Shown here piece after piece: positions 15,860 through 27,948 of a DNA stretch of 33,554 bases (its first letter is position 1; every line of letters begins with the position of its first letter). The DNA is from Cytophagales bacterium. Lineage in GTDB: Bacteria; Bacteroidota; Bacteroidia; Cytophagales; UBA9547. The stretch is taken from assembly GCA_014376535.1 (NCBI GenBank), contig JACMRH010000185.1:1-33554 (forward strand), written 5' to 3'. The notes beneath the pieces were generated by a model, which did not search any database, was not told the origin of the DNA, and saw only the letters and a list, made by a program, of their open reading frames with translations. A program made the position numbers and the translations under genes.

Positions 15860-16543
15860 TTAACTAAGAACTTTTAAACTCTTGTAGATAGTGTCTTTTA
15901 GAAATGTTTTTGTATTGCTAATATCTTTGGTCTCAGTAAAATCCGTTAATGATGGTAAGTTTTGCATGAAAAAATAAAGATTTCGTGACATTAATAGTAC
16001 GGTGCTTGCAAGATTTCTGGAATATGGATACTCAGGGTTAATTTCTTTAAATATTCCTGCAATCCTACTACATAAAGCTTTATAAGGTTTATAAAATCCA
16101 TACTCATTAAATTTGGTAACATCGTGGTTAAGGTAGGATTTTGAAGATTCTTTTATAACAAGCATGTGAAGTATTCTCTTATCAACTATAGGGCCACCAT
16201 CAATATAATCTTTGGTATTCAGTAATAAGACATCCAATAGAATGTCTACTTTTTTCTCCGAATTTTCAATATTATTACTTTTGAAAACTACAAGATATTC
16301 CAGCCATTGCCAGTACCAGCTCAAAACATATAACAATAGCATTTGTTTATTTTCAAAGTAACGATATATACTTGATTCTGTAGTATTCATTTCTTTCGCA
16401 AGTTTTTTAAAAGTAAAATCCTCTATTCCTATCTCTTCAATCATTATTATTCCGTTCCTGAGGATATTTTTTCCCAGATCGGAAGTTTTAGGATCACGTA
16501 GGTAAAGCTTGTCATTTATATTTATATCCAGGTTCCACTCCAT
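15860..16543 (-). CDS. TetR/AcrR-family regulator (TetR-1), divergent from the bicarbonate operon
   Basis: The 227-aa protein has an N-terminal HTH in which FTFKKLAKEMNTTESSIYRYF is the classic TetR helix-turn-helix followed by the YRYFENK helix. The C-terminal ligand domain is helical and rich in aromatics (YVLSWYWQWLEYL). Its N-terminal half is strongly similar to the second TetR gene at 25742-26413, from LYLRDP through the HTH to SWYW, so the two are paralogues. It is transcribed divergently from the carbonic anhydrase gene with 89 bp between them. That gap holds a near-palindromic operator over the carbonic anhydrase -7 box. I infer that it represses the carbonic anhydrase-sbtA-sbtB operon and perhaps itself. 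The ligand is unknown. Confidence 0.85.
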   Translation of the reverse strand: MEWNLDININDKLYLRDPKTSDLGKNILRNGIIMIEEIGIEDFTFKKLAKEMNTTESSIYRYFENKQMLLLYVLSWYWQWLEYLVVFKSNNIENSEKKVDILLDVLLLNTKDYIDGGPIVDKRILHMLVIKESSKSYLNHDVTKFNEYGFYKPYKALCSRIAGIFKEINPEYPYSRNLASTVLLMSRNLYFFMQNLPSLTDFTETKDISNTKTFLKDTIYKSLKVLS

Positions 16544-16582
16544 ACAGTCTTATAAGATTCTTAAAAATACGAAATAAAAGTA

Positions 16583-16612
16583 TTGTATTAATAAATGATA
16601 GTATTACTTTTG
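16583..16612 (+). promoter_or_regulatory. Predicted promoter of the carbonic anhydrase-sbtA-sbtB operon
   Basis: TTG at 16583-16585, a 19-bp spacer and TACTTTTG at 16605-16612 match the Bacteroidota sigma-ABfr pattern (TTTG, 19-21 bp, TAnnTTTG), with the -7 box an exact match. The predicted transcript would start about 20-40 bases before the candidate start codons. The operator at 16597-16611 covers the -7 box, which fits repression. Confidence 0.6.
16597..16611. promoter_or_regulatory. Candidate TetR operator, site 1
   Basis: GATAGTATTACTTTT is an interrupted palindrome around a central T with the core AGTA-T-TACT. Similar 15-mers occur in the cutA-like promoter (25635-25649) and upstream of TetR-2 (26479-26493). 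It lies in the divergent TetR-1/carbonic anhydrase gap and overlaps the predicted -7 box. Confidence 0.6.
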
Positions 16613-16653
16613 CAATAGAAAGTATAGCAAGCATGTTTAAAACATTAACTCTT

Positions 16654-17319
16654 ATGAAAATACCAGTGTATTTATTTGGCATATTGATTCCGTTATCAGG
16701 AATATGCCAAAACTCTGTCCTAAATCCAGAAGAAGGTTTAAAAAAATTAAAAGAGGGGAATGAACGATTTGTAAACGGGACGAGCCTAAAGCCTAATCAG
16801 GATATAAAACGTATTAAACAGGTTGCATTGGGTCAAAATCCATTTGCGATCATAGTAGGGTGTTCTGATTCAAGAGTGCCGAATGAAATAATATTCGATC
16901 AAGGTTTAGGAGATTTATTTATAGTAAGAACAGCTGGCCAGGTATCCACTTATGCTTCATGGGGTAGTATTGAGTTTGCACATTTTATCCTTGGTTCAAA
17001 ACTAATTGTGGTGTTGGGACATACAAAGTGTGGTGCTGTTTCTGCCGCTTGCAAGGTTCCGACTGTACCTGGGCACATTGTAACACTTATCAATAGTATA
17101 AAACCAGCAGCAGAAGAAGCAAAAAAGCATCCAGGTGATCAGGTAGAAAATGCAGTGAAAATCAATGTTGCTATGCAAGTAAAACAACTAAAGGACCTGG
17201 AACCTGTTTTACGTGGCGCAGTGGAATCAAATCAGCTAAAAATAGTAGGAGCTGTATATGACCTTGAAACTGGTCTGGTAGAATTTCTTTCAGAAGATTA
17301 CCTGAATACCCTAAAATAA
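16654..17319 (+). CDS. Exported beta-class carbonic anhydrase
   Basis: Beta-carbonic anhydrase interconverts CO2 and bicarbonate using a Cys-His-Cys zinc site. Numbered from the longer track start, the ligands and partners are C77, D79 and R81 in CSDSR, and H130 and C133 in GHTKCGA; all are present. The early FxxGNERFVNGT-type region and the late AVYDLETGLVEFL strand are typical. A hydrophobic signal sequence (MKIPVYLFGILIPLSGICQN) precedes the domain, so the enzyme should act in the periplasm. I chose the ATG at 16654 because it starts a normal signal peptide; the track start at 16633 is also possible. sbtA follows after 19 bp. Together they would make and import bicarbonate. Export of the enzyme rather than cytoplasmic placement is notable beside a bicarbonate importer. 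Confidence 0.9.
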   Translation: MKIPVYLFGILIPLSGICQNSVLNPEEGLKKLKEGNERFVNGTSLKPNQDIKRIKQVALGQNPFAIIVGCSDSRVPNEIIFDQGLGDLFIVRTAGQVSTYASWGSIEFAHFILGSKLIVVLGHTKCGAVSAACKVPTVPGHIVTLINSIKPAAEEAKKHPGDQVENAVKINVAMQVKQLKDLEPVLRGAVESNQLKIVGAVYDLETGLVEFLSEDYLNTLK

Positions 17320-17338
17320 CCAAAGTTAATTATTCATT

Positions 17339-18304
17339 ATGCAATTCTCTGATTTGTTTCAAAATTTTCTGAATACCCCAGTTCTCTTCTTTTTTCTGGG
17401 AATGATAGCGATCGCTCTTAAATCCAATCTTGAAATACCTCAACCGCTTCCCAAGTTTATTTCACTTTATCTTTTGTTTTCTATTGGAATAAAGGGAGGG
17501 GCAGAATTAAGTCATAGCGGATTTGGAAATGGAATATTAGGAATATTAGTAGTGGCCATATTAATGTCAGCACTTGTCCCGGTATACGCTTTCTTTATAC
17601 TAAAAAAGAAAACAAGCATTCCTAATGCAGCTGCACTTGCTGCAACTTATGGCTCTGTCAGTGCGGTTACCTTTATCACTGCTGTTGCTTTTCTTCAAAG
17701 CAAAAATGTTGCATTTGGTGGACATATGGTGGCAGCAATGGCACTTATGGAAGCCCCCGCCATTATTATGGCAGTTGTTCTGTATAAACTACATAATAAA
17801 GTATCAGATAATAAAACAACACTTGGACATACCATTAAAGATGCTTTTACAGAAGGATCTATTATTATGATCCTGGGAAGCCTTTTAATTGGGTTGATTG
17901 TTGGCCAGAAGGGATTTGAATCTGTGAAACCTTTTGCAGGGGATATGTTTAAAGGTATACTTTGTCTTTTTCTTCTGGATATGGGACTGGTAGCTGCAAG
18001 AAGATTAAAAGATCTAAAGGAAACCGGAATGTTTTCTCTGGTTTTTGCACTCTTAGTTCCTTTATTAAATGCTATAATCGGTATTTTCCTTGCATATCTT
18101 TTAAACATGAGTCAGGGAGATGCCCTTATGTTCACAGTTCTTTGTGCGAGTGCATCTTACATTGCTGTGCCCGCTGCAATGAGGGTAGCTATTCCAGAAT
18201 CTAATCCTGGAATTTATGTTCCCATGTCGCTGGCTATTACTTTTCCTTTTAATGTAGTTTTCGGAATCCCTCTTTATTATTATATTATTCAGAATTTTAT
18301 TTAA
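17339..18304 (+). CDS. sbtA: Sodium-dependent bicarbonate transporter SbtA
   Basis: The 321-aa protein has about ten transmembrane helices in two inverted halves and matches the SbtA family (formerly DUF897). Recognisable stretches are SIGIKGGAELSHSGFG, AALAATYGSVSAVTFITAV, MVAAMALMEAPAIIMAVVLY, LLDMGLVAARR and the late ASASYIAVPAAMRVAIPESN. In cyanobacteria SbtA is a high-affinity Na+/HCO3- symporter of the CO2-concentrating mechanism. Here it sits between an exported carbonic anhydrase and an SbtB-like gene. The three genes are spaced by 19 and 11 bp and clearly form an operon under TetR-1. In a non-photosynthetic host the bicarbonate probably feeds carboxylases or pH control; that is inference. 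Confidence 0.93.
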   Translation: MQFSDLFQNFLNTPVLFFFLGMIAIALKSNLEIPQPLPKFISLYLLFSIGIKGGAELSHSGFGNGILGILVVAILMSALVPVYAFFILKKKTSIPNAAALAATYGSVSAVTFITAVAFLQSKNVAFGGHMVAAMALMEAPAIIMAVVLYKLHNKVSDNKTTLGHTIKDAFTEGSIIMILGSLLIGLIVGQKGFESVKPFAGDMFKGILCLFLLDMGLVAARRLKDLKETGMFSLVFALLVPLLNAIIGIFLAYLLNMSQGDALMFTVLCASASYIAVPAAMRVAIPESNPGIYVPMSLAITFPFNVVFGIPLYYYIIQNFI

Positions 18305-18315
18305 CAAATATTAAT

Positions 18316-18609
18316 ATGATAAATCTTCAAAAAGTAGAAATAATTACAGAAAAAAGATCAATTGACGAAGTAATCAGGATACTGGAATCGCTAGGAGTAA
18401 ATGGGTATACGGTTATAAGAAATGTTACCGGCAAAGGCAAGAGAGGAATAAAGCACGGAGATGATCTTAACGATGTATTTATTAACAGCTTAATCCTGGT
18501 CGTGTGCGATGAATCGCAGGCTATTGCTATTGTAAAGGAAATGAAAGTATTCCTTCAAATTGTAAGCGGAGTTTGCTTTGTTTCAGATGTCAAATATGTT
18601 GTCCATTAG
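18316..18609 (+). CDS. sbtB: SbtB-like PII-family regulator of SbtA
   Basis: This 97-aa PII-like protein begins 11 bp after sbtA. It shows the ferredoxin-like start (LQKVEIITEKRSIDEVIRIL), a T-loop region (TVIRNVTGKGKRGIKHGDD, about residues 32-50) and the closing strand DVKYVV. The GKGKRG motif fits SbtB nucleotide-binding and SbtA-contact sequences better than GlnB/GlnK, and the uridylylated Tyr context of GlnB is absent. The C-terminal CGPxGC redox loop of cyanobacterial SbtB is missing. SbtB trimers bind adenine nucleotides and, depending on ligand, dock on SbtA and block transport. The same role is inferred here from gene order. Confidence 0.85.
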   Translation: MINLQKVEIITEKRSIDEVIRILESLGVNGYTVIRNVTGKGKRGIKHGDDLNDVFINSLILVVCDESQAIAIVKEMKVFLQIVSGVCFVSDVKYVVH

Positions 18610-18787: not shown

Positions 18788-18934
18788 ATGAGAATATTAT
18801 TTTTATTGATACTTACTTTTTATTTGACCCTATATGAACTCTACGCACAAAGTTTTGACCTGGGCAGTTGGAATATTCTGAATTTAAAATACAACCTTGA
18901 CCAGAAATCCTTGATAGTAAATAAAGGTAGATAG
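18788..18934 (+). pseudogene. N-terminal remnant of a DUF2490-type outer-membrane protein
   Basis: The frame from the ATG at 18788 gives a signal peptide (MRILFLLILTFYLTLYELYA) and then QSFDLGSWNILNLKYNLDQK, the characteristic opening of DUF2490 barrels. It then runs into unrelated sequence and a TAG at 18932. The other roughly 180 residues of the domain are absent, so only the first 40 codons survive. It lies downstream of sbtB, and its decayed end meets the convergent outer-membrane gene. It could still encode a short exported peptide, but no function is likely. Confidence 0.6.
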
Positions 18935-19012: not shown

Positions 19013-19759
19013 TCAGAACTCATACATTATCTCCATAATTACAGATCCTTTTTTTGCTGCTTCCAGGTTTGGGAACTTATATCCACCAATTAAAACAATG
19101 TGTTTAAAATTTAATTGAATGGCACTAATCAGTGCCCCTAAATCGTGTGTGCCTGAAAACCAATCAGCTATAATTAGAAACTTGTCTTTGTAGATAGGCT
19201 GTTCCACTCCACCCATAAATGAAAACGGATTTCGTTCTGTTACTTTCCTTTCCGTTATACCATTTTGGGTAGTACTCAAAGTATCGTAGCCAAAAAGTTC
19301 TGCAGAACCATAGCTTAAACCATAAGTGAGGCGGGTTTTTGTTCTGTCCAATTTGTTGCTGAACATGGCGTATGACCAACCTCCAACTGATTTTCTGTCT
19401 GAACTGAACAAAACATTCTGACCAAAAACAAATTTCATTTCTGGTAGTGGCACTGACTTCAGGTCTATAATTTTTTTAAAACCAAGGCCTAAACTTTCGT
19501 GCGAAAGAGGAGAATTGGAAATATTCGCAAAAGAAACAGTCACCTCCAGATTTTTCGCAGCACCATAACACATAAAATTAAAACTGTTCCATTTCATTTT
19601 GTCATAAGACCAGGAGTTTATCTGAGATTCATGGGTAAACATAAATCGTTTTTCAGGTGCCACATCTGCACTTGGTATTCCCGCTATGAGCGATTGGGAA
19701 TAAGATCTGTTAATTAGGCAGATTAAAATCGCAAAGGTGAAGAGGTTCAGCTTATTCAA
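19013..19759 (-). CDS. Predicted outer-membrane beta-barrel protein, unknown family
   Basis: This 248-aa product has a signal peptide (cleavage after RSYS) and a mature part of alternating amphipathic strands. Examples are KNLEVTVSFANISNS, MKFVFGQNVLFSSD and TRLTYGLSYGSAELFGYD. The C-terminus is aromatic (IMEIMYEF), as expected for an outer-membrane barrel of about 8-12 strands. The segment DKFLIIADWFSGTHDLGAL resembles a membrane-lining hairpin. It lies between the bicarbonate module and the ABC/HlyD/TolC operon, on the same strand as the latter, with 164 bp to the 57-aa gene. It may be a porin for either module, but the sequence does not identify a substrate. Confidence 0.65.
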   Translation of the reverse strand: MNKLNLFTFAILICLINRSYSQSLIAGIPSADVAPEKRFMFTHESQINSWSYDKMKWNSFNFMCYGAAKNLEVTVSFANISNSPLSHESLGLGFKKIIDLKSVPLPEMKFVFGQNVLFSSDRKSVGGWSYAMFSNKLDRTKTRLTYGLSYGSAELFGYDTLSTTQNGITERKVTERNPFSFMGGVEQPIYKDKFLIIADWFSGTHDLGALISAIQLNFKHIVLIGGYKFPNLEAAKKGSVIMEIMYEF

Positions 19760-26691: not shown

Positions 26692-27948
26692 ATGAAAATT
26701 AACAATATTATTAAAAAGAGATCATTTCTTTGGTCGACTTTACTATGTATTTTAGTAACAAATTATTCCAGGGCTCAAACACCCGTAGAAAGGCACGGAC
26801 AGTTAAAAGTTTCCGGCAACAGAATACTTGATAAAAATAATAACCCCGTTGTATTAAGGGGAATGTCTCTATTCTGGAGCCAGTGGATAGGAAAATATTA
26901 TAATTTTAACACAGTCAAATGGTTGCGTGATGATTGGTGCTCGAACGTAATACGAGCATCAATGGCCGTTGACCAGGGTGGATATGCTACCAGACCTTCA
27001 GAAAAAGAAAAAATAATTGCTGTTGTTGACGCTGCTATAGAGTTAGGAATATATGTAATAATTGACTTTCATATTCATGATGCGCCATTATATCAATCAC
27101 ATTCAAAGACATTTTTTGACGAAATGTCTTTGAAATACAAAGACAACCCCAACGTTTTATATGAAATTTGGAATGAGCCTTTAAACGTCTCCTGGCCTGA
27201 TGTTATTAAACCTTACAGCGAAAATATTATTGAGGTAATAAGGGCAAACGATCCAGATAACATCATTATATGTGGTACACGCAATTGGTCGCAAAGAGTT
27301 GATGAGGCTGCTATAGATCCAATACAACGTCCTAATATCGCATACACCTTACACTTCTATGCAGCAACCCACAGGCAAACCTATAGAAACTACATCACAA
27401 CAGCTATGAACAGAGGCATAGCAGTATTTGTAACTGAATATGGTACCTGTGCGGCTGATGGGAATGGCGATATCGATGAAACAGAAACAAAAACCTGGTG
27501 GGATTTTATGGAAAGAAATTTTATTAGCTATTGTAATTGGTCTGTGGCTGATAAAGTTGAAACATCTGCTGTTCTAAAGCCGAGAGCTAGTGTAAATGGT
27601 GGATGGAGTACAAATGAATTAACACTTTCCGGAAACCTGGTCAGAAATCACTTGAGATCCCTTTGTTCATTAACATTCCCAGGTGGAGGAACTGTAAACG
27701 GAATTGACGAAAGCTTAGAATCTACCAACAGAAGATTTATTCCAAATCCGTTTGAAAGCTCAACAACTCTGATAAGTAACTCAGAATTTAAATATTCTGT
27801 TTCCGATTTATATGGGGTGATCCATTTATCCGGCCATGGAAAGGGAAGTCTATCCCTTGGGGAAAACATGTATCCAGGTATATATTTTGTTAAAATTATT
27901 GAACAAAATAAAGAGACTATTTTAAAAATCCGAAAGGGCCTATTTTAA
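26692..27948 (+). CDS. GH5 endoglucanase (cellulase) with type IX secretion tail
   Basis: After a signal peptide (about residues 1-29) comes a single GH5 catalytic domain (about 33-325) that hydrolyses beta-1,4-glucan by a retaining mechanism. Seen in sequence are VVLRGMSLFWSQW, R88 in VIRAS, FHIHDA, acid/base E162 in EIWNEP, H221/Y223 in LHFYA, nucleophile E249 in VTEYG, and W283 in CNWSVADK. The pattern fits subfamily GH5_2. A short Gly-rich linker leads to about 75 C-terminal residues (RFIPNPFE, YPGIYFVKI, ILKIRKG) typical of the T9SS type A sorting domain. The enzyme should therefore be secreted or tethered at the cell surface. No carbohydrate-binding module is visible. It diverges from TetR-2, and operator-like sites lie in the shared gap. 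Confidence 0.93.
   Translation: MKINNIIKKRSFLWSTLLCILVTNYSRAQTPVERHGQLKVSGNRILDKNNNPVVLRGMSLFWSQWIGKYYNFNTVKWLRDDWCSNVIRASMAVDQGGYATRPSEKEKIIAVVDAAIELGIYVIIDFHIHDAPLYQSHSKTFFDEMSLKYKDNPNVLYEIWNEPLNVSWPDVIKPYSENIIEVIRANDPDNIIICGTRNWSQRVDEAAIDPIQRPNIAYTLHFYAATHRQTYRNYITTAMNRGIAVFVTEYGTCAADGNGDIDETETKTWWDFMERNFISYCNWSVADKVETSAVLKPRASVNGGWSTNELTLSGNLVRNHLRSLCSLTFPGGGTVNGIDESLESTNRRFIPNPFESSTTLISNSEFKYSVSDLYGVIHLSGHGKGSLSLGENMYPGIYFVKIIEQNKETILKIRKGLF

Follow-up and report, generated by a model that had tools for sequence, protein, structure and literature searches.

A carbonic anhydrase–SbtA–PII-like operon in a Cytophagales genome and its possible role in bicarbonate supply

Introduction

The DNA analysed here, a stretch of 33,554 nucleotides referred to as the window, belongs to a Cytophagales MAG and carries genes for a beta-carbonic anhydrase (CA), an SbtA-family transporter and a PII-like regulator, arranged as a likely operon. 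The most probable role of this operon, to which we assign a probability of about 0.68, is the PII-gated supply of bicarbonate to PEP carboxylase (PEPC) and other bicarbonate-using carboxylases. It would constitute a stand-alone, regulated inorganic-carbon supply operon, in which an exported beta-CA would bring periplasmic CO2, also that leaked from the cell, into equilibrium with HCO3-, and the transporter would carry HCO3- inward with Na+. The PII-like protein would sense an adenine nucleotide, perhaps together with bicarbonate, and its T-loop, inserted into the transporter, would close it when the carbon or energy status of the cell needs no uptake. A TetR-family protein would govern transcription from the shared intergenic region, and the imported bicarbonate would reach PEPC and other bicarbonate-using carboxylases, not Rubisco. 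An earlier note on this DNA had presented such a module as surprising in an apparent heterotroph; as heterotrophs commonly possess the individual parts, the surprise is smaller than it first seemed, and the interest lies in their regulated three-gene form, which is uncommon and apparently doubled.

Organization of the Locus

The features of the locus, with the matches on which their assignment is based, are as follows.

15860..16543, minus strand: TetR-family regulator gene (PF00440, 33.6 bits)
16575..16615, plus strand: conserved intergenic block, candidate promoter and putative TetR operator (conservation; pattern match at 16583-16612)
16633..17319, alternative ATG at 16654, plus strand: beta-carbonic anhydrase with a putative N-terminal export signal (PF00484, 136 bits, 1.7e-39)
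17339..18304, plus strand: SbtA-family transporter, 321 aa (PF05982, 400.8 bits, 5.3e-120)
18316..18609, plus strand: PII-like regulator of CPII/SbtB type, 97 aa (PF00543, 56.9 bits, 2.9e-15)

The transporter lies far over its Pfam cut-off (27 bits), and the CA, the PII-like protein (cut-off 25 bits) and TetR are clearly over theirs, while a search of the module proteins against NCBIfam returned matches below cut-off only. The CA, sbtA and PII-like genes share one strand, with gaps of 19 bp between the first two and 11 bp between the last two, and the next sizeable listed open reading frame is on the opposite strand, at 19013, so that the three genes likely form one operon. A survey of Bacteroidota for the same gene order, which the earlier note had suggested, found it again on a second contig of the same MAG (C213), in a genome of the same genus (G390) and in a genome of another family (G454). 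This recurrence excludes a chance gene order and confirms the CA-SbtA-PII-like gene set that had been described, and the conservation of the module across two genera, each from its own family, argues for bicarbonate supply.

The TetR gene diverges from the operon in the window, C213 and G390, at 75-92% identity; the short upstream sequence of the G454 locus showed no TetR gene. In the same three loci the intergenic block is near-identical and its flanks diverge. The block includes a TTG-N19-TAnnTTTG element, which fits the promoter pattern of Bacteroidota, and in C213 a weak palindrome lies across it. The module had been placed under a TetR regulator; the divergent gene is there, and it likely encodes the transcriptional regulator of the operon. 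The conservation of the promoter block in three loci, together with the matching families and folds described below, is a further argument for the supply of bicarbonate. The attribution of the region to a cellulose-degrading Bacteroidota is supported for the phylum, the closest named relative being a Cytophagales MAG, and not for the lifestyle, which a single GH5 gene (26692-27948) is insufficient to establish.

The SbtA-Type Transporter

The match to PF05982 spans profile positions 3-308 of 308 and thus the whole transporter. Its structure, predicted from 40 relatives with a pLDDT of 86.8, has Synechocystis SbtA as its PDB fold matches at ranks 1-5 (TM 0.71-0.82), the bile-acid symporter fold following well behind, and membership of the SbtA family is secure. 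Identity to Synechocystis SbtA is about 25% in a structure-based alignment, and on the SbtA tree the Synechocystis protein, whose row was assembled from aligned stretches only, has a branch length of 4.3 changes per column; the window's SbtA belongs to a deep non-cyanobacterial branch.

In Synechocystis SbtA, the side chains of Ser114, Tyr140, Ser324 and Ser327 have been proposed to contact HCO3-, and alanine substitution of any one of these residues left ~10-40% of activity (PMC8352866). Alignment of this site indicates that Ser114 and Ser324 are kept, as Ser108 and Ser273, and that Tyr140 and Ser327 are changed, to Met134 and Ala276. Ser108 and Ser273 are conserved in nearly all sampled Bacteroidota SbtA proteins, and Ala276 is found in virtually all of them. 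Because overall identity is only about 25% and two of the four proposed side chains differ, bicarbonate is regarded as the probable, inferred substrate, and the two changes weigh against a role in bicarbonate supply.

Functional data for non-cyanobacterial relatives of this kind were found only for Shewanella SO_3758, the wild-type form of which confers formate tolerance when expressed in Zymomonas (PMC12093963). Its pocket residues, Val, Ser, Ser and Ile (PMC12093963), correspond in our reading of the alignments to Val107, Ser108, Ser273 and Ile275 of the window protein. This phenotype also weighs against bicarbonate supply and, together with the altered pocket (Met134, Ala276), the deep divergence from cyanobacterial SbtA and the missing CA and PII neighbors of most Bacteroidota copies, favors a transporter that would move another small monocarboxylate, such as formate, with the CA and PII-like protein acting alongside it. 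Such a substrate is nevertheless quite improbable, given that SbtA entries fill all the top ranks among the structural matches, that Ser108 and Ser273 are retained in nearly all copies and that linkage to a CA is repeated in several lineages.

The PII-Like Protein

The third gene had been named sbtB. Its product has a PII-like fold and is encoded directly downstream of sbtA, as that name implies, yet the name is too specific, the protein being closer to CPII by both sequence and fold. Its best solved sequence relative in a single-sequence search is CPII of Thiomonas (5d4n, 2.9e-8), and ranks 1-12 among the matches to its predicted fold are CPII structures, followed by SbtB at TM ~0.7-0.8; in a mixed 30-row profile search, TTHA0516 outscores CPII. 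The C-terminal CGPxGC R-loop, which is common and not universal in SbtB, is absent from the protein (which ends DVKYVVH) and from its whole 30-member alignment. CPII of Thiomonas intermedia (PDB 5D4L-5D4P, 5DS7), the closest solved protein, is of similar length and was crystallised with bicarbonate, but its identity to the window protein is only ~30%, and binding of nucleotide or bicarbonate by the latter is putative. The title of Wheatley et al. 2016, as cited in PMC6458275, describes CPII as carboxysome-associated.

Among plasmid sequences, the nearest relative is encoded at the end of DabB-DabA(DUF2309)-PII operons of Nitrobacter, in which DUF2309 is taken to be DabA. That the closest solved PII protein is CPII, with its bicarbonate crystal, and that the plasmid relative belongs to DAB operons, another inorganic-carbon system, argues for a function in bicarbonate supply.

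In the T-loop, residues 38-55 by bounds chosen after the alignment had been viewed, all 18 of 18 positions are identical across the four closest modules, vs 36 of 79 elsewhere in the protein. Such invariance would be expected of a loop that fits into a conserved partner, and it too supports gated bicarbonate supply; the structure model is least certain in this loop. A second, quite different PII-like subfamily, recognizable by a WEGRNI/WEGENI stretch, adjoins SbtA at loci L040, L186, L036, L044, L048, L051 and L078, so that two PII lineages pair with this type of transporter.

The Carbonic Anhydrase

The zinc and catalytic motifs of the CA are complete, with CxDxR present as GCSDSR and HxxC as GHTKC (in GHTKCGAV), and its closest solved structure is 2a5v (4.8e-36). 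The enzyme had been described as an exported beta-CA, and its identity as a CA holds. Export to the periplasm is suggested by a hydrophobic N-terminus ending in CQ; a hydrophobic N-terminus followed by CQ, AQ or a similar end occurs in six related CAs, which are that of the window and five relatives adjoining SbtA. Three kinds of CA neighbor Bacteroidota SbtA genes: exported, lipoprotein-like and cytoplasmic.

The MAG encodes two further CAs, cytoplasmic in type by appearance, and the cell therefore has no shortage of CA, which weighs against a role in bicarbonate supply. Since these enzymes could already make HCO3- from CO2, and an exported CA would suit pH buffering equally well, the same parts might serve periplasmic or cytoplasmic pH and Na+ balance, or the export of respired bicarbonate, carbon supply not being their main role. 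The earlier note had offered pH balance as an alternative, and the data on the Shewanella relative are compatible with either direction of transport (PMC12093963). This purpose is considered unlikely, as a nucleotide-reading PII protein paired with inorganic-carbon uptake, as with CPII, SbtB and DAB-linked PII, better suits gating by carbon or energy status.

Distribution in Bacteroidota

SbtA is widespread among relatives of this bacterium. In a sample of 295 genomes from the class, 76 carry PF05982, and within the order the SbtA profile matched 84 genomes out of 195, the two samples overlapping by a few genomes; plasmid relatives of SbtA span Pseudomonadota, Actinomycetota and Bacillota. These counts, and the literature precedent discussed below, contradict the view that SbtA is surprising in a heterotroph.

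The regulated three-gene arrangement, by contrast with its common parts, is uncommon. Among 158 Bacteroidota SbtA loci with flanks, two of them the MAG's own, a PII-like gene was adjacent at 33, a CA gene at 12 and both at 7, numbers that are approximate lower bounds because some flanks are short and the two samples overlap slightly. An iterated profile was used to identify the 33 PII-like neighbors; single-sequence phmmer identified few. The majority of SbtA genes (120 of the 158; loci L032-L195) had neither neighbor, which weighs against a role in bicarbonate supply. The 12 CA neighbors compare with ~0.3 expected by chance, on the rough assumption of three CAs per 3,500 genes, and the CA-neighbor label requires at least seven changes on the SbtA tree, so that the CA-SbtA linkage has been gained or lost repeatedly. 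Both this linkage and the PII-like neighbors, the label of which is clustered on the tree, argue for the supply of bicarbonate.

Relation to Known Systems and Physiological Role

The absence of Rubisco from the window, remarked upon previously, extends to the genome: PF00016 had no match in the MAG, which is 94% complete, nor in a further 33 SbtA carriers, control genomes being positive, and Rubisco-based carbon fixation was rejected as a role. A search for other carboxylases showed that the MAG encodes PEPC, a possible sink for bicarbonate. The presence of PEPC and the finding of Rubisco in none of the 34 carriers favor, of the two uses put forward in the earlier note, the supply of bicarbonate to carboxylases, the substrate being probable as discussed above.

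Cyanobacterial SbtA-SbtB (Synechocystis slr1512-slr1513; PDB 7CYE, 7CYF, 7EGK) likewise comprises a transporter gene followed by a PII-like gene, with the same transporter fold and a PII fold with a T-loop. The window differs in its low identity, in the loss of Tyr140, Ser327 and CGPxGC, in the inclusion of a putatively exported CA in the operon and in belonging to a MAG in which no Rubisco was found. In the PII-linked DAB operons (Nitrobacter hamburgensis plasmid), a related PII-like gene is likewise the last of an inorganic-carbon uptake operon, but these operons use the DabA/DabB complex whereas the window uses SbtA. MpsAB/DAB of Staphylococcus aureus similarly provides bicarbonate or CO2 for anaplerotic reactions in a non-autotroph (PMC6689103), through a transporter family unrelated to SbtA.

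SbtA in heterotrophs, and a CA with a bicarbonate transporter and PEPC in heterotrophic Bacteroidetes, have already been published. SbtA-like proteins have been noted in heterotrophs (PMC10117731), and sbtA is enriched in rhodopsin-bearing Flavobacteriia (PMC5932025). The heterotrophic Bacteroidetes species Schleiferia thermophila has a CA, a Na+-dependent bicarbonate transporter and PEPC, for which anaplerotic fixation was proposed (PMC4148732), and the same combination is cited there for Polaribacter MED152. The physiology proposed in these cases, anaplerotic use of inorganic carbon, is that proposed here, but the reports tie the system to proteorhodopsin, and operon structure and a PII partner are undescribed in the portion of PMC4148732 consulted. 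A PF01036 search for rhodopsin gave no match, in control genomes either, and so carries no weight for or against such a link here. An operon joining an exported CA, SbtA and a CPII-type PII was not found in the open-access literature searched.

If bicarbonate supply is the correct reading, the transporter-plus-PII switch of the cyanobacterial CO2-concentrating mechanism would be a general means of supplying bicarbonate without Rubisco, here with an exported CA built in. It would explain how carboxylases are supplied at low CO2 in some heterotrophs and would offer a small, testable system for PII gating of bicarbonate transport. It would also caution against taking sbtA as a marker of autotrophy.

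Second Copy of the Module

The MAG has a second full TetR-CA-SbtA-PII module, which lies beside pgi on a separate contig (G000:C213:9611-12372, L108), and the module of the congener G390 likewise adjoins pgi. C213 and G390 are 83-92% identical across the module, and each shares about 72-80% identity with the window copy. By these comparisons the C213 copy is the orthologue of the G390 module, and since its identity to G390 exceeds its identity to the window copy, the latter would stem from an older duplication or from transfer.

The three-gene set is thus apparently carried twice, in a MAG with 5.55% contamination and 551 contigs. These figures suit a binning artefact, in which two congeners were combined and the module is single-copy per genome, as do identities to G390 of 93% for pgi on C213 and 95% for PEPC, vs 70% for the NuoI-like protein and 81% for the FAD-oxidase of the window. 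On the other side, the MAG contains a single close copy each of pgi, the NuoI-like protein and the FAD-oxidase, and the window contig and C213 correlate at 0.95 in composition, a level also seen with further contigs from this bin. Single-copy markers and composition favor one genome for both modules; a mix of two congeners is possible and deserves consideration, if short of an even chance, and as it concerns copy number only, it is compatible with a role in bicarbonate supply. Foreign contamination by the window contig was rejected, since its composition and its FAD-oxidase, 81% identical to that of G390 but 56% to that of the next genus, indicate that it belongs to the genus.

A more elaborate form of bicarbonate supply, which we regard as doubtful, is a self-contained bicarbonate-concentrating operon of a heterotroph, in which the periplasmic CA would recapture leaked CO2, SbtA would re-import it as bicarbonate past a CPII-type gate reading nucleotide and bicarbonate, and anaplerotic carboxylation would consume it, the two copies perhaps having different settings.

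What appeared to be two PEPC genes proved to be one, split over contigs G000:C231 and G000:C5, pieces of which overlap at 99.4%, which points to mixed strains within the MAG. Just upstream of the window module is a serine recombinase fragment (PF00239; 15035-15376, minus strand), which may be a trace of past insertion of this copy. Downstream, a short open frame on the plus strand (~18788-18930) has a signal-peptide-like start (RILFLLILTFYLTLYELYAQSFDLGSWNILNLKYNL) and an early stop, and it resembles the beginning of a disrupted gene for an outer-membrane protein.
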